A DNA stretch of 64,000 bases, taken from positions 1 to 64,000 of the forward strand of contig NZ_JAKRGB010000007.1 in NCBI RefSeq assembly GCF_022347725.1. The letters are read 5' to 3'. Below, one piece after another: positions 44,021-55,028 of this stretch. Every line of letters begins with the position of its first letter. Position 1 is the first letter of the stretch. Below the pieces are notes generated by a model. It was not told where the DNA came from and made no database searches. It saw only the letters and a program-made list of their open reading frames with translations. A program made the position numbers and the translations under genes. The stretch comes from Ruegeria sp. Ofav3-42. GTDB lineage: Bacteria; Pseudomonadota; Alphaproteobacteria; Rhodobacterales; Rhodobacteraceae.

Positions 44021-45025
44021 TTACTGAATGACCGCATCTTCCCAGGCGGACAGAAATTTTGCTCTTTTTAAACCGTCCAGGAACGTCAGCAACGCGGGAT
44101 CGAGGCTAATCGTTTCTTGTCCGTTAGCTCCGGCTCTTGGCTGCAAGAGGGGAAGAGGGCTGCTTCCTTCGGGCACGGCAGATCCGTCGGCAACAAGATA
44201 ACGCAACAGCAATTCCGCCGCCTGTGGTTCAGCTGTCGCATTCGAGACCATGGCCGTACGCATCATGACTGTTTGAAAATCTGACGGCAGCACGACCTCA
44301 AGGGCATCCTTGCCCTCGGTACGCACAGCCGCGTAACTCCCCAGAACATTGTAGGCAACAAGTATGGTTCCGTCCGCAAGGTCATTGATCATTTCGCCCG
44401 AGCAGCAATACAGCCGCACGTCCAGGCCGCCCATGACCTCCATCAGCCGCCAATAGGTCTCGGACGCGCGCGCGTCTTGCGTTGCGAACAGGTACCCCAG
44501 ACCCGACTGTCGCACGTCATAGGTGCCGACCTTGCCCCGAAACTCATCAGGTCGGTTTCGCAAAGTCTCAATAAGGCCCTGCCGGGTCTGTGGTATCGGC
44601 TGACCCTCGAAAGCGGCGCGGTTGATCACGATGGTTGCCGGTTCCGAGGTGAAGGCAAAAAGGCTGTGGTGCCACTGCGCCCAGTTTGGCGCCGGGACAT
44701 CCTCGATCGGTAGGGCAAACCCGTCATTTGCCAGTTTCAACTGCAGATCCATGGCGCTGGAGATGATCACGTCGAACGCCTCGGGTGTGGCCCGGACCCG
44801 CCTGTTGATGTCAGCAGTGCCGGAGACAAGATATTCGACACTAATCAAGGGATTTTGGGCCACAAATCCTTCGATCACAGGGGCAAACAAAACGGTATCG
44901 GTACTGGAGATGACACGTAGGCGTGGACCCTCGGCACCTTCGTTGAAGATCAGGCGATCTTCCCAATCATCTGCCCACCCGACAAAGGGGAGAAGTGTTA
45001 CGACTAGAGCGATAAGATAACGCAT
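44021..45025 (-). CDS. Periplasmic solute-binding protein linked to TctDE (Fe3+/ABC type fold)
   Basis: A 334-aa exported binding protein: signal peptide (residues 1-18, MRYLIALVVTLLPFVGWA), then a bacterial extracellular solute-binding fold (RLRVISSTDTVLFAPVIEGF ... TAVVINRAAF-like region, then GKVGTYDVRQSGLGYL). It is not a TctC-type (Bug) protein. It overlaps the tctE stop by 22 bases, so it belongs to the regulatory operon tctD-tctE rather than the transporter operon. I infer a periplasmic sensor that presents the ligand to TctE, giving a three-component system. Confidence 0.75.
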   Translation of the reverse strand: MRYLIALVVTLLPFVGWADDWEDRLIFNEGAEGPRLRVISSTDTVLFAPVIEGFVAQNPLISVEYLVSGTADINRRVRATPEAFDVIISSAMDLQLKLANDGFALPIEDVPAPNWAQWHHSLFAFTSEPATIVINRAAFEGQPIPQTRQGLIETLRNRPDEFRGKVGTYDVRQSGLGYLFATQDARASETYWRLMEVMGGLDVRLYCCSGEMINDLADGTILVAYNVLGSYAAVRTEGKDALEVVLPSDFQTVMMRTAMVSNATAEPQAAELLLRYLVADGSAVPEGSSPLPLLQPRAGANGQETISLDPALLTFLDGLKRAKFLSAWEDAVIQ

Positions 45026-46371
45026 GCGCCCCCCTTTGCCCGGTTCTTGAGTATCAACGACCCTCCGTGCGCCGTCGCCACATCCTGCGCGATCGTCAAC
45101 CCCAGACCGGACCCGATAGTCCCTGCCGCGTTCTGACCACGTTCGAACCGGCGCGTCAGCGTGTCGATTTCATCAGGCGGAAAGCCGGGACCCGCATCGC
45201 GTACTTGGATCTGCGGGTCCGGATATGCGATGATCGTGATCGCTACAGTGCTGTCCGACGGCGCGTATTTCATTGCATTATCAATCATGTTCCGCACGGC
45301 ATTCTGGATCAGGATCGGGTCGCCCGAATAGGGAACCGACGGCTCGCCGGTTAGGGACAGCGTCAGCTCTTTCATTTCGGCAATCGGGTTCAGGCGTTGA
45401 ACCAGTTCACGGATCAGGATGACCAGATCGATCTCCTCACGTTCCAGATGGTCCGCCCGAAAGGTAATCATGGCGTGATCCAGCAACTGCCCCGCCGCGC
45501 GCGAGCTTTCGTCGATGGCCCGCACCATGGCCTTCAGCGCCTCGCGGTTGTCTTCTCGTTCGACGCGGTGAAGGGTCGCCTCAGCATACGATCTGACCGT
45601 CGCCAGCGGAGTCCGCACCCGGTGCGCGGCCTCTGCAATAAAGTCCTCTGACTGGCTTAGCGACTGATCCAGACGACCCATCAGGGAATTCAGAGACATC
45701 ACCAGCGGTGCCATCTCTTTTGGAACGGGCTTTTTGAACGGGCTCAGATCCTGTGGACCTCTGCGCGTGACCGAGGTCGTCAGTTTGTTCAATTGGCCGA
45801 TCGTTGTGGACGTCACCCAGAACGATAACGCCGCAGTCAGCAGAAAGAACCCGATCCCAAGATAGGCTGCGTTCCGCGAAATCTGATCCAAAGTATCCGC
45901 CAGCGCGTCCTGCGTTTGCCCCAACGCAACCTCAATCTCGGTTTGGCGGCCCAACCCGACCAACGTCCGGCTGGCGCTGACTTGCCGAATACGTTCGCCA
46001 CGCACTTCGCCGGTTTGAAACGTCCATCGGTCCTCGACGGGACCTTCCGCAATGCTCAGGTCCTCGTATCCGGACAGGAACTTGCCGTCCTGAAAAATGG
46101 CATAGAACACCCGATCATCAGACGGAGTGGTCAACATGGAGAAGGCGGCATAGGGAATGTCGACCTCAAGCTGGCCATCCCTAAGCGCGGCGGCGTCAAG
46201 GATGGACGTCACCGAGGCCCCCAATATGTCATCCTGACCCTGCTGAGCCACCTTTGCGGCATAGTTGCGCACCGTAAAGAACAGAAGAATGGCCAGAACC
46301 GCAGCCCCGCCGATTAGCGTCAACACCAGACGGTTTCTCAGCGATCCCGAGACGGTTGGGTTAGTCGTCAT
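45004..46371 (-). CDS. tctE: Sensor histidine kinase TctE
   Basis: A 455-aa membrane kinase. Two membrane helices (about residues 15-35 and 170-190) enclose a periplasmic sensor region of about 130 residues, followed by a HAMP-like linker. The phospho-acceptor His250 lies in EAAHRVRTPLATVRSYAEA (H-box), and N, G1 and G2 boxes follow (NMIDNAMKYAP, VRDAGPGFPPDE, GSGLGLTIA). Matches the TctE/QseC subgroup controlling tricarboxylate transport. It overlaps tctD by 11 bases and the periplasmic binding protein by 22, forming one operon. Confidence 0.93.
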   Translation of the reverse strand: MTTNPTVSGSLRNRLVLTLIGGAAVLAILLFFTVRNYAAKVAQQGQDDILGASVTSILDAAALRDGQLEVDIPYAAFSMLTTPSDDRVFYAIFQDGKFLSGYEDLSIAEGPVEDRWTFQTGEVRGERIRQVSASRTLVGLGRQTEIEVALGQTQDALADTLDQISRNAAYLGIGFFLLTAALSFWVTSTTIGQLNKLTTSVTRRGPQDLSPFKKPVPKEMAPLVMSLNSLMGRLDQSLSQSEDFIAEAAHRVRTPLATVRSYAEATLHRVEREDNREALKAMVRAIDESSRAAGQLLDHAMITFRADHLEREEIDLVILIRELVQRLNPIAEMKELTLSLTGEPSVPYSGDPILIQNAVRNMIDNAMKYAPSDSTVAITIIAYPDPQIQVRDAGPGFPPDEIDTLTRRFERGQNAAGTIGSGLGLTIAQDVATAHGGSLILKNRAKGGACVILSL

Positions 46372-47029
46372 GATCCAGCCTATAACCCAGCCCGCGCAGA
46401 GTGGTGATTTTCATGTCGGATTTCTCAAGATGTTTGCGCAGGCGACCGACATAGACCTCAATCGCGTTGTCCGAAACGTTGTCGTCATAAGAAAACAGCC
46501 TGTCCGCCAGTTTCTGCTTTGAGAACACCTGACCCGGCGCGTTGATGAAAAGTTCGATCATTCTCAGTTCGCGATTGCGGAGTGAGACCGTTTCGCCATC
46601 AACCGTCAAATGACCCGCCACCGGGTCAAAAACAATTCCACCAATCTCGATCGTCGACTTCGCGCTTCCGGATCTGCGGCGCAAAACGGCGCGGCAGCGC
46701 GCTTCAAGCTCGGCATGATCGAAGGGTTTCGTCACGTAGTCATCCGCCCCCAGATCAAGTGAGCCGATTCGATCCGAAACCTGACTGCGCGCGGTCAGAA
46801 CGATCACCGGCGTGTCCAGACGGCTGGCGCGATGCTGTCTGAGGAACTCACGCCCATCGCCGTCGGGCAACATGATATCCAGAAGGATCAGGTCATACTC
46901 TTCGGTCGCAACAAAAGCGCCCGCGTCCCCCAAATCTGCTGCATGATCAACGACATGACCGTCCAGGCGCATACGGGAACTGATCGCATTCGCGAGGTCC
47001 AGATTGTCTTCGACGAGCAGAAATTTCAT
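46361..47029 (-). CDS. tctD: OmpR/PhoB-type response regulator TctD
   Basis: A 222-aa two-component response regulator. Receiver domain (1-115) starts MKFLLVEDNLDL; phospho-acceptor Asp51 lies in LILLDIMLPDGDG; Lys of the receiver is in DYVTKPFDHAE. The C-terminal winged helix (about 125-220) has RNRELRMIELF and the recognition-helix segment NAIEVYVGRLRKHLEK. ATG at 47029 gives the normal length. It is divergent from tctCBA with 108 bases between starts, and a PhoB-like 11-bp repeat lies in that region. Confidence 0.95.
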   Translation of the reverse strand: MKFLLVEDNLDLANAISSRMRLDGHVVDHAADLGDAGAFVATEEYDLILLDIMLPDGDGREFLRQHRASRLDTPVIVLTARSQVSDRIGSLDLGADDYVTKPFDHAELEARCRAVLRRRSGSAKSTIEIGGIVFDPVAGHLTVDGETVSLRNRELRMIELFINAPGQVFSKQKLADRLFSYDDNVSDNAIEVYVGRLRKHLEKSDMKITTLRGLGYRLDHDD

Positions 47030-47054
47030 GGGCTGTGGACAGTTTCTTTTCACA

Positions 47055-47076
47055 TGACAGGTTGATGTCAGGTTGG
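47055..47076. promoter_or_regulatory. 11-bp direct repeat: predicted TctD box
   Basis: Two adjacent 11-mers, TGACAGGTTGA (47055-47065) and TGTCAGGTTGG (47066-47076), agree at 9 of 11 positions. Direct repeats with an 11-base period, on the same helix face, are the recognition pattern of PhoB/OmpR-type regulators. A -10 element GATAAT lies at 47092-47097, so the second repeat covers the -35 region of tctC as in class II activation by PhoB. Binding by TctD is inference. Confidence 0.6.
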
Positions 47077-47137: not shown

Positions 47138-48115
47138 ATGACAACATTTAACCTGGGCCGTCGGGCCCTGATCGCAGCGGTTGCAGCAATCGGTCTGGTT
47201 GGACCTGCCGCATCCGAGGAAGTCGTCGACAGCATCCACTTTCTGATCCCCGGCGGTGCCGGCGGTGGCTGGGACGGAACTGCACGCGGAACTGGCGAGG
47301 CCCTGACCAATGCAGGTCTGGTCGGCACGGCATCTTATGAGAACATGTCGGGCGGCGGCGGTGGCAAGGCCATCGGCTTCCTGATTGAAAACGCCGACAG
47401 CAACCATGGCACACTGATGGTCAACTCGACCCCCATCGTGATCCGCTCGCTAACCGGCGTGTTCCCGCATAACTTCCGCGACCTGACACTAGTGTCGGGA
47501 ACAATCGGCGATTACGCAGCGATTGTTGTGGGCAAGGACAGCCCCATCAACTCGATGGATGATCTGCTGGCCGCTTATGACGCTGATCCCGGTGCTACTG
47601 CGATCGGCGGGGGTTCCGTGCCGGGCGGTATGGACCACCTGGTTGCAGCGATGGTTATGGAAGCCGCCGGCAAGGATGCGCTGGGCGTGAAGTACATCCC
47701 TTATGACGCCGGTGGCAAAGCCATGGCGGCTCTGCTGTCAGGAGAGATCGCGGCCCTGTCGACCGGTTTCTCGGAAGCCGTCGATCTGGCCAATGCGGGC
47801 GAGGTCAAAATCATTGGTGTGACCGCTGAAGAACGCGTAGACGCCGCGCCTGATGCACAGACCATGAAGGAACAGGGCATCGACACCACCTTCGTGAACT
47901 GGCGTGGTTTCTTTGCAGCCCCCGGCCTGCCCGAGGACAAGCTGGTCGCCTATCAGGAAGCCATCACCAAGATGTACGATACTCCTGAATGGGAAGAAGT
48001 TCGTGCCCGTAATGGTTGGGTCAACATCCACAACTCGGGTGCCGATTTCGAAGCGTTTCTGGAAGATCAGGAACAGCAGATCAGTGACCTGATGAAGAAG
48101 CTGGGCTTCCTCTAA
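47138..48115 (+). CDS. tctC: Tripartite tricarboxylate transporter binding protein TctC
   Basis: A 325-aa periplasmic substrate-binding protein of the Bug/TctC family. A signal peptide (about residues 1-26, ending GLVGPAASEE) is followed by the mature chain with IHFLIPGGAGGGWDGTARG, the typical TctC N-terminal motif, and the GGSVPGGMDHL binding loop. It delivers a tricarboxylate or related carboxylate to TctA-TctB. The start is set by GGGAGGA and the signal peptide. First gene of the transporter-degradation operon. Confidence 0.95.
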   Translation: MTTFNLGRRALIAAVAAIGLVGPAASEEVVDSIHFLIPGGAGGGWDGTARGTGEALTNAGLVGTASYENMSGGGGGKAIGFLIENADSNHGTLMVNSTPIVIRSLTGVFPHNFRDLTLVSGTIGDYAAIVVGKDSPINSMDDLLAAYDADPGATAIGGGSVPGGMDHLVAAMVMEAAGKDALGVKYIPYDAGGKAMAALLSGEIAALSTGFSEAVDLANAGEVKIIGVTAEERVDAAPDAQTMKEQGIDTTFVNWRGFFAAPGLPEDKLVAYQEAITKMYDTPEWEEVRARNGWVNIHNSGADFEAFLEDQEQQISDLMKKLGFL

Positions 48116-48124
48116 AATAATCTG

Positions 48125-48150
48125 CGGCAGAGCGTTTGGTCGCTCTGCCG
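48125..48150 (+). other. Intercistronic hairpin between tctC and tctB
   Basis: A perfect 10-bp stem (48125-48134 with 48141-48150) with a 6-base loop, no T run. It could protect the 3' end of the tctC message and so raise TctC above the membrane subunits, a usual arrangement for binding-protein genes. Confidence 0.6.
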
Positions 48151-48182
48151 TCCCCAATAAACGAAAAAAGGGAGGGGACGCT

Positions 48183-48665
48183 ATGGCGCTGGATCGCTGG
48201 ATCGCGCTTGTTTTACTGGGTGTTTGCCTGACATACGGGTACGCCGCCTGGTTCACGATGGATGGAAGTCTTCCTCCTTTCATGCAAAGAAACCCAATCT
48301 GGCCCAGCACATTTCCCAAGGTGCTTTCGGTTCTGGGCGTAGTCGCGTGCTCGATCATCCTGCTGGGCTTTGAAAAGAGCGAAATCAAAGAGGCCGACAT
48401 CGATTACCGCAGACTTGGGGACTATCATCTGGGTCAGGCGATTTCGCTGCTGGTTCTGATGGTCGTCTACGCCCTGTGCCTGCGCCCTGTCGGTTTTCTG
48501 ATCGCGACATCCGGTTTTCTGATCCTCGGGTCCTACATCCTTGGCGAACGCAAATGGCACATCATGCTGCCTGTCGCGTTCATCGCAACCGGATCTGTCT
48601 GGTATCTGGTTCAGGAAGTTCTTGGAATTTACATGCGCCCCCTGCCGGGCCTGTTCGGAGGCTGA
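48183..48665 (+). CDS. tctB: Tripartite tricarboxylate transporter small membrane subunit TctB
   Basis: A 160-aa membrane protein with four hydrophobic segments (for example around residues 8-24, 40-62, 85-110 and 118-150), typical of TctB. It forms the membrane complex with TctA. A GGGAGGGGA lies before the ATG. The next gene, tctA, starts one base past the stop, so the two are co-translated. Confidence 0.92.
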   Translation: MALDRWIALVLLGVCLTYGYAAWFTMDGSLPPFMQRNPIWPSTFPKVLSVLGVVACSIILLGFEKSEIKEADIDYRRLGDYHLGQAISLLVLMVVYALCLRPVGFLIATSGFLILGSYILGERKWHIMLPVAFIATGSVWYLVQEVLGIYMRPLPGLFGG

Positions 48666-48666
48666 C

Positions 48667-50178
48667 ATGCTTGAAGGACTTCTGATCGGCCTGCAAACGG
48701 CATTCTCAATTCAAAACCTTTTGATGGTCATCGCCGGATGCCTCATCGGCACATTCATCGGCATGCTTCCAGGTCTGGGGCCGATGTCGATCATCGCAAT
48801 CATGATCCCGGTTGCGATTTCGATGGGCGATCCATCTGCTGCGCTGATCCTTTTGGCCGGCGTCTATTATGGGGCGATCTTTGGCGGATCGACCTCATCC
48901 ATTCTGCTCAACGCGCCGGGGGTCGCGGGCACCGTTGCTTCAAGCTTTGACGGCTATCCGATGGCCCGACAAGGCAAGGCGGGCAAAGCGCTTACCATCG
49001 CCGCAATCGCCAGTTTCGCAGGTGGTACGCTGGGCGCAGTGTTGCTGATGATCTTTGCGCCGGCTTTGTCTTCCGTCGCGCTCTTGTTCCACTCTGCCGA
49101 ATATTTCGCACTTATGGTGGTCGGCCTTTCGGCCATCGCCGCTTTTGCCGGTTCGGGGCAAGTGGCCAAGGCCATCATCATGACGACCTTGGGTTTGATC
49201 ATGGCCACCGTCGGAGAAGGCGCCTTATTCAATCTTCCGCGATTCACAATGGGAATCATGGACCTGCAATCCGGGTTTGGCTTCATCACCCTAGCCATGG
49301 CCATGTTCGCCCTGCCCGAGGCCTTGTTTCTGGTTCTGAAACCGAAAGACCTGAAAGGCGACGACGGAGAAATCAAAGACCTGCGTGTGACCAAAGACGA
49401 GGCCAAGGCAATCGCTCCGGTCATCGGTCGCCAATCGGTGCAGGGCTTCTTTATCGGCGTCCTGCCCGGAGCAGGCGCGACCATCGCAAGCTTCCTCGGC
49501 TACGCGGTCGAGCGGAACATCGCCCCCAAGGAAGAGCAGGAGGAATTCGGCAAGGGCTCGATCAAAGGACTCGCCGCACCCGAGTCGGCCAACAACGCCG
49601 CCTGTACCGGGTCGTTTGTTCCGCTGCTGACGCTGGGTATTCCCGGATCCGGGACAACGGCGATCCTGTTGGGTGCCTTGATTGCTTTGAACGTGACTCC
49701 CGGGCCCCGGCTTATGGTGGACGAGCCCCAGATCTTCTGGGCCGTGATCATGTCCATGTTCATCGGAAACCTCGTCCTGCTGATCCTGAACCTGCCGCTG
49801 ATCCCTTACATCGCCAAAGTGCTGGCTGTACCGCGTAACTACCTGATCCCGTTCATTTTGTTCTTTACTCTAATGGGGGCCTATATCGGGCAGAACAACG
49901 CAACGGAATTGCTGATCCTTGTGGGCTTCGGCGTCTGCGCGACAGCACTGAAATTCGCGGACTATCCGCTGGCTCCACTGCTGATCGGCTTCATCCTTGG
50001 CGGCATGATGGAGGATAACTTTGCGCGTTCCATGCAGCTGTACGATGGTATCGCCTTTATCTGGGAACGCCCGATGACATTGGGGCTCCTGGTGATCGCT
50101 GCCTTGCTTGTGCTTCTACCCAGCTACCGTGCACGTCGTGCACGGGCCCGCGCTGCTGGTGTGGCCGATGGCGACTGA
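48667..50178 (+). CDS. tctA: Tripartite tricarboxylate transporter large membrane subunit TctA
   Basis: A 503-aa membrane subunit with about 11-12 helices. Diagnostic motifs: GMLPGLGPMSIIAIMIPVAISM near the N-terminus (split), YYGAIFGGSTSSILLNAPG, and the second repeat GVLPGAGATIASFLGYAVE and GIPGSGTTAILLGALIALN. These GxPG motifs define the carboxylate pathway in the TctA family. ATG at 48667 fits the family start; the frame is open upstream in tctB. The end overlaps the CoA transferase start by 11 bases. Confidence 0.96.
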   Translation: MLEGLLIGLQTAFSIQNLLMVIAGCLIGTFIGMLPGLGPMSIIAIMIPVAISMGDPSAALILLAGVYYGAIFGGSTSSILLNAPGVAGTVASSFDGYPMARQGKAGKALTIAAIASFAGGTLGAVLLMIFAPALSSVALLFHSAEYFALMVVGLSAIAAFAGSGQVAKAIIMTTLGLIMATVGEGALFNLPRFTMGIMDLQSGFGFITLAMAMFALPEALFLVLKPKDLKGDDGEIKDLRVTKDEAKAIAPVIGRQSVQGFFIGVLPGAGATIASFLGYAVERNIAPKEEQEEFGKGSIKGLAAPESANNAACTGSFVPLLTLGIPGSGTTAILLGALIALNVTPGPRLMVDEPQIFWAVIMSMFIGNLVLLILNLPLIPYIAKVLAVPRNYLIPFILFFTLMGAYIGQNNATELLILVGFGVCATALKFADYPLAPLLIGFILGGMMEDNFARSMQLYDGIAFIWERPMTLGLLVIAALLVLLPSYRARRARARAAGVADGD

Positions 50179-51355
50179 ACCGCTCAGGGGCGTTCGGGTC
50201 CTTGATCTGACAAACGTGCTTGCAGGCCCGTATTGTTGTTACCAGCTGGCCCTGATGGGGGCAGAGGTGATCAAGGTCGAACGCCCCGGCAGCGGTGATC
50301 TGGCGCGTGTGCTTGGGGCTGATCCTGACCGGAACAAAGCCGGCATGGGGATCAGCTTTCTGGCGCAGAACGCTCAGAAGAAATCGATCACGCTGGATAT
50401 GAAATCCAGCCGGGGCAAGGCTCTGCTGAAACTGTTGGTGCAATCGGCTGACGTGCTGGTCGAGAATTTCAGGCCCGGCGTCATGGATCGTTTGGACCTG
50501 GGCTATGAAGTTCTGCGCGCCGAAAACCCCGCTTTGATCTACTGCGCAATCAGCGGTTTTGGGCAAGATGGGCCGCGCCGCGATGACCCGGCCTATGATC
50601 AGATCGTCCAAGGGATCAGCGGGGTCATGTCGATCACCGGCGCGCCGGACACCGCGCCCTACCGTGTTGGCTATCCGTTGGCCGACACAGTTGGCGGGCT
50701 TACAGCCGCCTTCGCGGTGAGCACGGCGTTGAACGCAAAACCGCGCGGCACATTCCTGGATATCGCCATGTCCGAGGCCGTGATCTCGACCATGGGTTGG
50801 GTCGTGTCCAACTACCTTGTCGGAGGCGTGATGCCGGGCGCGCATGGCAACGAAAACACAACCTCTGCACCGTCCGGTACATTTGCCACATCCGACAGCC
50901 CGATCAACATCGCCGCAAATCGCGATGAGCAATGGCAGGCTCTTGCCCGACATCTTGGCCGGGAGGAACTGTTGGATGACCCCGATTACGCGACGCGCGA
51001 GGATCGCAAGCGAAACCGTCATGCGCTGAGGGGCGAGTTGGAGAAGTCATTGAAATCACGCCGGGCAAACGAATGGGTCGCCGAACTGAACGGATTGGGC
51101 GTGCCAACTGGGCGAGTCCAGACGGTTCCCGAGGCTTTGGCGGACGAACAACTGGCTGGGCGCGGATTGATCGGCACGCTACAGGTAGATGGCGAAGACA
51201 TGCAGTTGGCTGGCAGCCCCGTCGTGATGGATGGGCAGCGAAGCATGCCACAAGCGGCACCACCGAAACTCGGCGCGGATAACGCTGCAATCTGGTCCGA
51301 ACTTGGCCTGTCTACGGACGAGCTCAACGAGTTGGCAAAGGATGGCGTGATATGA
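50168..51355 (+). CDS. Family III CoA transferase (CaiB/BaiF type)
   Basis: A 395-aa class III CoA transferase. The family start LRGVRVLDLTNVLAGPYCCYQLALMGAEVIKVERP (split) is clear, and the presumed catalytic Asp144 is in DDPAYDQIVQGISG, as in formyl-CoA transferase and CaiB. The start overlaps the tctA end by 11 bases and its stop overlaps the downstream lyase by four. Because of this neighbourhood, I infer that it transfers CoA from a donor such as acetyl- or succinyl-CoA to the imported tricarboxylate (for example citrate to citryl-CoA). Confidence 0.88.
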   Translation: MATEPLRGVRVLDLTNVLAGPYCCYQLALMGAEVIKVERPGSGDLARVLGADPDRNKAGMGISFLAQNAQKKSITLDMKSSRGKALLKLLVQSADVLVENFRPGVMDRLDLGYEVLRAENPALIYCAISGFGQDGPRRDDPAYDQIVQGISGVMSITGAPDTAPYRVGYPLADTVGGLTAAFAVSTALNAKPRGTFLDIAMSEAVISTMGWVVSNYLVGGVMPGAHGNENTTSAPSGTFATSDSPINIAANRDEQWQALARHLGREELLDDPDYATREDRKRNRHALRGELEKSLKSRRANEWVAELNGLGVPTGRVQTVPEALADEQLAGRGLIGTLQVDGEDMQLAGSPVVMDGQRSMPQAAPPKLGADNAAIWSELGLSTDELNELAKDGVI

Positions 51356-52131
51356 GCGACGTTTCCGACTGGTGGCGCACATCCATCATCGACATGGAAC
51401 CCGGTCGCATTGCTTTGCGCGGTGAACCGATTGAGGGACTGATCGGCAATCTGAGCTTTGCCGAGATGATATGGTTTCTGGTTCGCGGCGACCGCCCCTC
51501 ATCGGCGCAGGTGGACCTGTTCGAAGCAGCCTTGGTGGCCGCCGTGGATCATGGACCGCAAGCGCCTTCAATCGCAACTGCCCGAATGGCGGTGACCTGC
51601 GGGTTGCCTTTGAACAACGCGATGGCAAGCGCAGTGAATATGCTGGGCGACATCCACGGCGGAGCGGGTGAGCAGGCGGTAGAGCTTTATCATTTTGTCG
51701 GCTCCCACGCGGGCGAGCTGGGTGCAGCGCTGGACGACTGGATCGCAGAACGCGAAAAGATCCTGCCGGGTTTCGGCCACAGGTTTCACACACCGACCGA
51801 TCCGCGCGCACCACGACTGATGGCTTTGGTCTCGGAGGCCATAGAAAATGGCGCGTGTGATGGACGATTCAGAAAAATCGCACTTGATATCGAAACCGAA
51901 CTCGCGCGGCGCAAAGGCAAGCCCGTCCCGATGAACATCGACGGAGCCACTGCGGTTATCTACGCAGAGCTTGGGTTTGAACCACCCCTTGCGCGCGGTC
52001 TGTTCTGCCTGTCCCGGTCAGTTGGAATACTGGCACATGCGTGGGAGCAAACGCAGCAAGGCGGACGCAACAAAGGGCCGACTCCGCCCAAGTACCGCTG
52101 GACCTACGTTAAGGCCACGTCCCAGGAGTAG
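51352..52131 (+). CDS. Short citrate-synthase-fold protein, probable citryl-CoA lyase
   Basis: A 259-aa member of the citrate synthase family without the large N-terminal domain; full citrate synthases have about 430 residues. Residues matching the catalytic triad are present: His102 in GDIHGGAGEQ, His143 in LPGFGHRFH, Asp197 in MNIDGATAVIY. The order CoA transferase then this protein suggests cleavage of a CoA-activated acid to acetyl-CoA and an oxoacid (citryl-CoA to acetyl-CoA plus oxaloacetate). A synthase role is possible but less likely at this length and context. Last gene of the tctCBA operon. Confidence 0.8.
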   Translation: MSDVSDWWRTSIIDMEPGRIALRGEPIEGLIGNLSFAEMIWFLVRGDRPSSAQVDLFEAALVAAVDHGPQAPSIATARMAVTCGLPLNNAMASAVNMLGDIHGGAGEQAVELYHFVGSHAGELGAALDDWIAEREKILPGFGHRFHTPTDPRAPRLMALVSEAIENGACDGRFRKIALDIETELARRKGKPVPMNIDGATAVIYAELGFEPPLARGLFCLSRSVGILAHAWEQTQQGGRNKGPTPPKYRWTYVKATSQE

Positions 52132-53726: not shown

Positions 53727-54974
<1,248 letters not shown>

Positions 54975-55028
54975 CGCGACGTTCCCCTTATCGAATCCAA
55001 TTTCGCATGAATAACAGGCCACTCTAAG

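Follow-up and report, generated by a model that had tools for sequence, protein, structure and literature searches.

Which acid does a tripartite tricarboxylate transporter import when its operon runs on into two coenzyme A (CoA) enzymes, and what becomes of that acid inside the cell? The question is raised by a locus of Ruegeria sp. Ofav3-42 (assembly GCF_022347725.1) within a 64,000-nucleotide stretch, here called the window, that comprises positions 1 to 64,000 of the forward strand of contig NZ_JAKRGB010000007.1. There, tctC, tctB and tctA are followed by genes for a family III CoA transferase and a stand-alone citrate-synthase-fold protein. At a probability of about 60%, we read these genes and a divergent sensor module as a citrate-responsive catabolic operon that would join sensing, induced uptake, CoA transfer and cleavage. 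An initial annotation of the window had described five genes on the plus strand (47138–52131), and profile matches bear out each of them in place; the sensor module (44021–47029, minus strand) and the operator also belong to the unit and had been missed.

Gene content and order

The transporter is complete, comprising the receptor TctC (47138–48115, plus strand; PF03401, 91.3 bits), the small membrane subunit TctB (48183–48665, plus strand; PF07331, 73.3 bits) and the large membrane subunit TctA (48667–50178, plus strand; PF01970, 471.5 bits; start read in the sequence). A family III (CaiB/BaiF) CoA transferase, presumed to act on citrate, is encoded at 50168–51355 on the plus strand, and a citryl-CoA lyase at 51352–52131 on the same strand. 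As first annotated, reading frames overlap from tctA on, by 11 nucleotides (nt) between TctA and the CoA transferase and by 4 nt (ATGA) between the CoA transferase and the lyase; the latter overlap is preserved in 68 of 80 related loci. A single nucleotide separates the TctB stop from the TctA start, with no overlap. Downstream of the lyase stop (52131), the next likely gene lies on the opposite strand. Genome-wide, TctA has 7 matches, family III CoA transferases have 9 (two of them sharing an open frame) and the citrate synthase fold is encoded by 3 genes; with the set also recurring across genera, the five-gene arrangement is not one of chance. A strong, G+C-rich hairpin of 10 base pairs (bp), read in the plus-strand sequence between tctC and tctB (48125–48150), has no T run behind it and perhaps sets the TctC:TctBA stoichiometry.

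The lyase and its partner transferase

The citrate-synthase-fold protein was at first left unassigned. The fold is upheld, and the protein is a member of a family already named citryl-CoA lyase by NCBI, matching PF00285 and exceeding the curated cut-off of NF004864 (420.6 versus 261 bits). The catalytic His/His/Asp set noted earlier is retained, with H102, H143 and D197 invariant in 37 aligned orthologues; H67, R144, R152 and R222 are likewise invariant. These seven residues align with the genome's own citrate synthase GltA and with the Hydrogenobacter thermophilus enzyme; for all but H67 we take over the roles from citrate synthase. An absent N-terminal domain had also been proposed. Alignment to GltA confirms that the leading ~50 residues are lacking, but the difference is not a simple N-terminal loss, since a middle block is gone as well and an early portion of the citrate synthase profile (positions 9–65) is retained. 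The AlphaFold model of the lyase (mean predicted local distance difference test score, pLDDT, 84.8; residues 242–252 of low confidence) has as its best fold match 6hxp, the citryl-CoA lyase of H. thermophilus (E 1.3e-16, template modeling score 0.81). Fold ranks 1–40 are citryl-CoA lyase or ATP-citrate lyase structures (ATP, adenosine triphosphate), and whole citrate synthases appear from rank 41.

The partner enzyme is equally clear in family, with 379.2 bits against a PF02515 cut-off of 23.3. Of the 80 closest loci, 79 have an alignment that covers Asp144, which we take to be the catalytic aspartate of family III CoA transferases, and all 79 retain it. Neither family models nor relatives in the PDB gave the enzyme a specific function: every specific NCBIfam equivalog cut-off is missed, including those of the glutarate (266.7 bits, the best, against 750), mesaconate (256.7 against 700) and oxalate (254 against 522) models. 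As no specific equivalog is reached, its acceptor and donor can only be presumed. Word searches of open-licence full text in PubMed Central (PMC) found no published citrate:CoA transferase that feeds a citryl-CoA lyase.

The missed equivalogs weigh against citrate and give room to an alternative in which the same architecture serves another acid, such as citramalate, 2-methylcitrate, homocitrate or 3-hydroxy-3-methylglutarate, yielding acetyl-CoA and the matching oxo acid. The two nearest transferase models are succinate-glutarate and succinyl-CoA:mesaconate, and PDB relatives include succinate--hydroxymethylglutarate CoA-transferase. In the window lyase, moreover, the position of the C-terminal (last) arginine of citrate synthase, whose role we again assume from that enzyme, is a proline by alignment, and it is an arginine in the lyases of Photobacterium, Cupriavidus and locus L131; because this residue is not conserved, a firm substrate call for the lyase is weakened. 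Tct systems are also described, in passages of PMC5812351, as transporting several kinds of acid. We nonetheless consider another acid unlikely, if well worth bearing in mind.

Sensor module and operator

Citrate is indicated most strongly by the sensor module and operator. Encoded divergently, on the minus strand, are an MctA-like periplasmic substrate-binding protein of metal-citrate-binding fold (44021–45025), presumed to be a citrate sensor subunit, a sensor histidine kinase (45004–46371; HisKA and HATPase_c domains) and an OmpR/PhoB-type response regulator (46361–47029). The kinase carries a 2CSK_N domain (PF08521, 95.7 bits), which we take to be the N-terminus of TctE-type kinases, and its position divergent from tctCBA reproduces a TctDE-like arrangement. 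TctD is the best of 83 NCBIfam models for the regulator.

Sequence searches of the PDB matched the binding protein to 3c9h (2e-49) and the series of 7f6e (1.7e-32). In fold searches with its AlphaFold model (mean pLDDT 79.5), 3c9h again came first, ranks 3–15 were 13 chains of 10 entries for the metal-citrate-binding protein MctA, and ferric-binding proteins followed; several of the matched MctA entries carry citrate or Mg2+-citrate. The MctA residues that have been mutated, S26, D28, S79, S164, T199 and Y221, correspond to S41, D43, S90, S174, S209 and Y231, so that five of the six are identical and T199 is replaced by Ser. Across 33 binding-protein sequences, D43, S174 and Y231 are kept in all, S90 in 32 and S209 in 31; at position 41, 20 sequences have Thr and 12 have Ser. 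From the titles of the PDB entries we infer that these site residues hold citrate; a literature search found no paper on MctA, which is known here by those titles. By its fold and site residues, the Ruegeria protein presumably binds citrate or metal-citrate, and retention of the MctA site speaks against the alternative of another acid.

Regulator genes likewise sit beside tripartite citrate transporters in Salmonella (TctCBA with TctD/TctE) and Bordetella (BctCBA with BctDE), as portions of PMC5812351 and PMC6403454 describe, and Pseudomonas aeruginosa lacking TctED does not grow on citrate (same portion of PMC6403454). The Ruegeria unit differs from the Salmonella and Bordetella systems in that its kinase operon includes an MctA-like protein and its transporter genes are followed, in the same operon, by those for two CoA enzymes. 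Two points count against citrate here: the regulator misses the TctD cut-off (194.5 versus 337 bits), and TctDE-type regulators may serve other acids (PMC8102459).

Between the response regulator gene and tctC lie two tandem 11-bp direct repeats (ATGACAGGTTG ATGTCAGGTTG; 47054–47075, plus strand), presumed to be the operator of the response regulator. The pattern TGWCAGNYNNNTGTCAGNY is present in 57 of 62 regulator–tctC intergenic regions, the window included, as 21 distinct 19-mers; as it was derived from these same regions, the count describes conservation. It lies 59–71 nt 5' of tctC, with one instance at 23 nt, and is missing from the intergenic regions of L059, L064, L077, L217 and L223. 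In 200 shuffles of the intergenic set the pattern occurred 0 times (expectation 0.0), and the whole genome holds four exact sites and none of the reversed pattern. One of the three further exact sites, on contig C11, lies near tat-like genes and a gene for a WYL-type regulator, as named by eye. The operator consists of TGWCAG boxes 5 nt apart, and passages of PMC4513871 describe the PhoB box of P. aeruginosa as two (T)GTCAT boxes, also 5 nt apart; because of this resemblance, a PhoB-type regulator might bind the repeats. The same source places a TctD motif at tctD and opdH-tctCBA of P. aeruginosa.

Linkage across genomes

Conserved linkage of the transferase–lyase pair with tctCBA had been put forward as a check on the proposed pathway. 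It holds among relatives close to this lyase and weakens among distant ones. In the best 80 of 415 relatives, a family III CoA transferase is encoded immediately 5' of the lyase on the same strand in every case, although L053 and L065 have a remote family member there (156 bits). The sequence around the lyase also encodes TctC and TctA at 61 of the 80 loci and the sensor trio at 50; the trio never appears without Tct. In a sample of the family designed to reduce bias (394 genomes, approximately one per genus), 86 genomes have the lyase at E <= 1e-90, and the 57 better-scoring were examined, the rest being this genome, G440 and 27 lower-scoring genomes. The CoA transferase adjoins the lyase in 56 of the 57, TctC and TctA lie within 9 kilobases (kb) in 43, and the sensor trio is present in 34. 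TctA identity across the 43 loci is 81–89% in 34 and 40–59% in 9.

Several counts of this kind weigh against the citrate reading. Fourteen of the 57 family loci show no TctC/TctA within 9 kb, although in 3 of these the available sequence ends within 2 kb on one side; 13 of the 14 have the pair, and 1 has neither Tct nor CoA transferase. A phylum sample of 398 genomes contains 22 with a lyase over the cut-off, and at the 21 loci other than our own the CoA transferase is adjacent in 14 and TctC with TctA present in 8. Five genomes of this sample (L138, L139, L142, L143 and L144), which are also among the 27 lower-scoring ones of the family, have no CoA transferase. Labeling Tct linkage on the lyase tree requires at least 12 changes, of which the starred branches force only 1; independent assembly of the linkage is therefore not proven.

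The genome's own lyase paralogue also counts on this side. The three citrate-synthase-fold genes found by PF00285 are GltA and two stand-alone lyases, the second of which (L006:8706-9533, minus strand, contig C33) is 67% identical to the operon lyase. Clustered with it are genes for a QuiC-like 3-dehydroshikimate dehydratase (540 bits, cut-off 1200), a tripartite ATP-independent periplasmic (TRAP) transporter, a SauS-like acylating aldehyde dehydrogenase and a thiamine pyrophosphate enzyme, and no CoA transferase is found in the 16 kb around it. Six of the seven phylum lyases without CoA transferase group with the C33 lyase in one starred clade, and 5 of 7 rows of that clade are in QuiC clusters with a TRAP transporter. 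The substrate of the C33 lyase may be other than citrate.

Such contexts would fit an account in which the pair handles an internally made CoA ester, or acts as a synthase, and its place behind tctCBA reflects co-regulation with citrate. The 13 family loci with the pair and no TctC/TctA nearby, the varied plasmid contexts of the pair, and the C33 lyase without CoA transferase all favor it. Against it stand the reading frames that overlap with tctA, the presence of a TctA orthologue in all 34 genomes of the genus that encode the CoA transferase (though elsewhere in at least one, G429, where pair and transporter lie apart), and locus L221 (genome G399), where a more distant pair (61% and 66–67% identity) occupies the same place behind tctA. 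We regard this account as decidedly improbable for the Ruegeria locus.

On a Photobacterium plasmid, genes for TctC-B-A, CoA transferase and lyase are divergent from a different two-component system. Its kinase is of CitA/DcuS type, unrelated to the window kinase, and has an sCache_3_2 domain whose nearest PDB chains are 8bgb and 8biy (labeled histidine kinase), followed by CitA. The closeness to CitA disfavors an acid other than citrate. The kinase is nevertheless best matched by DcuS/MalK (389.4 bits, cut-off 520) and then DpiB (373.2, cut-off 656), neither of which is reached, and a four-carbon (C4) acid is a possible signal, which would count against citrate. The regulator is nearest to DpiA, also short of the cut-off (172.7 versus 264 bits).

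Other arrangements were encountered. In L131–L133 the sensor trio, the pair and TctCBA are present in rearranged order; in L131, genes for an IclR regulator, a chemoreceptor and an AbrB-family protein adjoin the unit, and L132 and L133 have genes of similar size there, a context that suggests chemotaxis toward the same acid. On an Agrobacterium larrymoorei plasmid (L095:6486-15384), lyase and CoA transferase genes lie between those for an aldehyde dehydrogenase and a TcuA-like flavin adenine dinucleotide enzyme (350.5 bits, cut-off 369), with aconitase gene acnA nearby; this cluster perhaps encodes a tricarballylate/aconitate route. In Ruegeria sp. AD91A (L098:9773-12363), genes for acetate kinase and a phosphate acetyltransferase-type enzyme converge on that for the lyase. 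An association with acetate kinase, suggested by a single Ruegeria plasmid, was rejected: the gene occurs in just 4 of the 80 closest loci and has no match in the window, and we consider it a local neighbor in L098. Elsewhere in the Ofav3-42 genome, approximately 15 kb of contig C3 (G000:C3:82141-96552) hold one match to TctA and three to family III CoA transferases (two within a single open frame), possibly another transporter–CoA transferase cluster. Within the window, the minus strand at 53727–55022 encodes a 431-residue protein with a long Glu-Ala repeat (EAEAEA...), flanked by HemY-like and uroporphyrinogen-III-synthase-like genes, both named by eye.

Presence and loss within the genus

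Among 54 genomes of the genus, which are related and whose counts are thus not independent, a TctA orthologue (E <= 1e-150) is present in 39 and the CoA transferase (E <= 1e-100) in 34. The CoA transferase is found at >= 77% identity in 31 and the lyase at >= 77% in 29. The CoA transferase never occurs without TctA in this set: each of the 34 genomes that encode it has both, and the 15 that lack TctA lack it too. Both enzymes are kept in 29 of the 39 TctA genomes. In five genomes (G415, G417, G442, G446 and G450) the sensor and transporter genes are retained but the pair behind them is missing; in G446 and G450, pieces of the CoA transferase survive as relics. No pair adjoins Tct in G422 and G434, the lyase is lost from G412, and G427 has a match to its first part only.

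Because these five genomes lost the pair and kept sensor and transporter, the pair is dispensable in some lineages, and the imported acid can be used by other routes, as citrate can. An acid degradable solely by the pair would be stranded in such genomes, a further argument against the other-acid alternative. The genome of Ofav3-42 itself encodes three aconitase-family proteins, namely AcnA (1430.5 bits, cut-off 686), an AcnB-type aconitase (958.6 bits, cut-off 782) and LeuC. The initial annotation had supposed a pathway without an aconitase entry; with both aconitases over their cut-offs and five pair-less genomes retaining the transporter, that supposition is not supported. Its companion claim, the absence of an ATP-dependent citrate lyase complex, holds insofar as CitF had 0 matches in the genome (the control being positive in 3 of 14 genomes and over the cut-off in 1), a result by which CitDEF in the same genome was rejected. 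The claim's wording merges CitDEF, which is not ATP-dependent, with ATP-citrate lyase, for which a PF16114 search was silent in the genome and equally in controls.

The two aconitases, together with loss of the pair from five genomes that spared transporter and sensor, might indicate an ordinary citrate import operon with two minor downstream genes and citrate used through aconitase. Invariance of the lyase catalytic residues in 37 orthologues and of the CoA transferase aspartate in all covered loci makes both enzymes look selected, and retention of both by 29 of 39 TctA genomes points the same way. We give this explanation very little credence.

Proposed route and known systems

Import, CoA activation and retro-Claisen cleavage of citrate, as initially proposed, is the best-supported reading through lyase family, linkage and sensor site; we infer activity, donor and substrate, with citrate the likely substrate. 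In the citrate-responsive operon that we favor, the MctA-like periplasmic protein would bind citrate or metal-citrate and, by way of the TctE-type kinase, activate the TctD-like regulator; the latter would bind the repeats at 47054–47075 and switch on tctC-tctB-tctA-CoA transferase-lyase. Citrate imported by TctCBA would then receive CoA from a donor thioester by action of the family III CoA transferase, and the lyase would split the resulting citryl-CoA to acetyl-CoA and oxaloacetate. Succinyl-CoA is most likely the donor, because both models closest to the CoA transferase are of succinyl-CoA enzymes; acetyl-CoA is a possible donor and would give a catalytic cycle releasing acetate. Citrate flux through this route would run alongside aconitase and provide acetyl-CoA and a C4 acid with no CO2 loss and no iron-sulfur enzyme. 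Two further considerations temper the proposal. With a working tricarboxylic acid cycle, the route costs a thioester and its benefit is not obvious. Searches for SPO0182-0188 also gave no sequence or neighbor identity by which the citrate transporter of Ruegeria pomeroyi could be called an orthologue of this operon.

Dedicated citrate cleavage is known from ATP-citrate lyase and from citryl-CoA synthetase with citryl-CoA lyase, and citrate synthase can also run in reverse (in part from passages of PMC9768450). The C-terminal citryl-CoA lyase module of ATP-citrate lyase resembles the operon lyase, which has no fused synthetase domain; the operon steps are encoded by separate genes, and no ATP-using citrate enzyme is seen among them. 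CitDEF is a further established citrate-cleaving enzyme, and it exchanges an acyl group onto citrate before cleaving the citryl thioester. The proposed route shares this logic of acyl exchange and thioester cleavage but would use CoA rather than the prosthetic group of an acyl carrier protein, and its proteins belong to different families. The synthetase–lyase system (Aoshima 2004, as cited in the same passages of PMC9768450) is alike in its two steps via free citryl-CoA and its stand-alone lyase of the same fold; the operon differs in having a family III CoA transferase in place of the ATP-using synthetase and in its setting of heterotrophic uptake. Neighboring regulators are a shared trait of the TctCBA and BctCBA citrate systems, and cleavage after CoA transfer has a parallel in itaconate degradation. 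The citramalyl-CoA lyase of that route is CitE-like. PMC12290011 describes the itaconate route as CoA transferase, hydratase and citramalyl-CoA lyase, the same logic of CoA transfer and CoA-ester cleavage, with a hydratase that the operon route does not need.

Biological implications

The enzyme families concerned are already known, and the lyase already bears an NCBI name. Citrate sensing, uptake and a transferase–lyase pair in one conserved unit appear not to have been described before in the searchable literature. Whether Roseobacters and some other proteobacteria split citrate via free citryl-CoA by means of a family III CoA transferase and a stand-alone lyase is, in our judgment, an evenly balanced proposition. 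If they do, the transferase-fed route would account for stand-alone citryl-CoA lyase genes in heterotrophs and would caution against reading such genes alone as markers of carbon fixation. The route could replace ATP-consuming citrate-splitting enzymes. With acetyl-CoA as donor, the pair would constitute a soluble, ATP-free citrate lyase cycle that converts citrate to acetate and oxaloacetate, acetyl-CoA acting catalytically; it would be analogous to CitDEF, CoA replacing the carrier protein. A possible gain is that the iron-sulfur cluster of aconitase would not be needed where iron is scarce. According to passages of PMC10130141, growth and drawdown on citrate fell by 99% in a tctABC mutant of R. 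pomeroyi (SPO0184), an observation in favor of citrate as the substrate here, and in a natural bloom no other transporter was expressed more highly. Because of that expression, what Roseobacters do with the citrate they import is of consequence for marine carbon flow.

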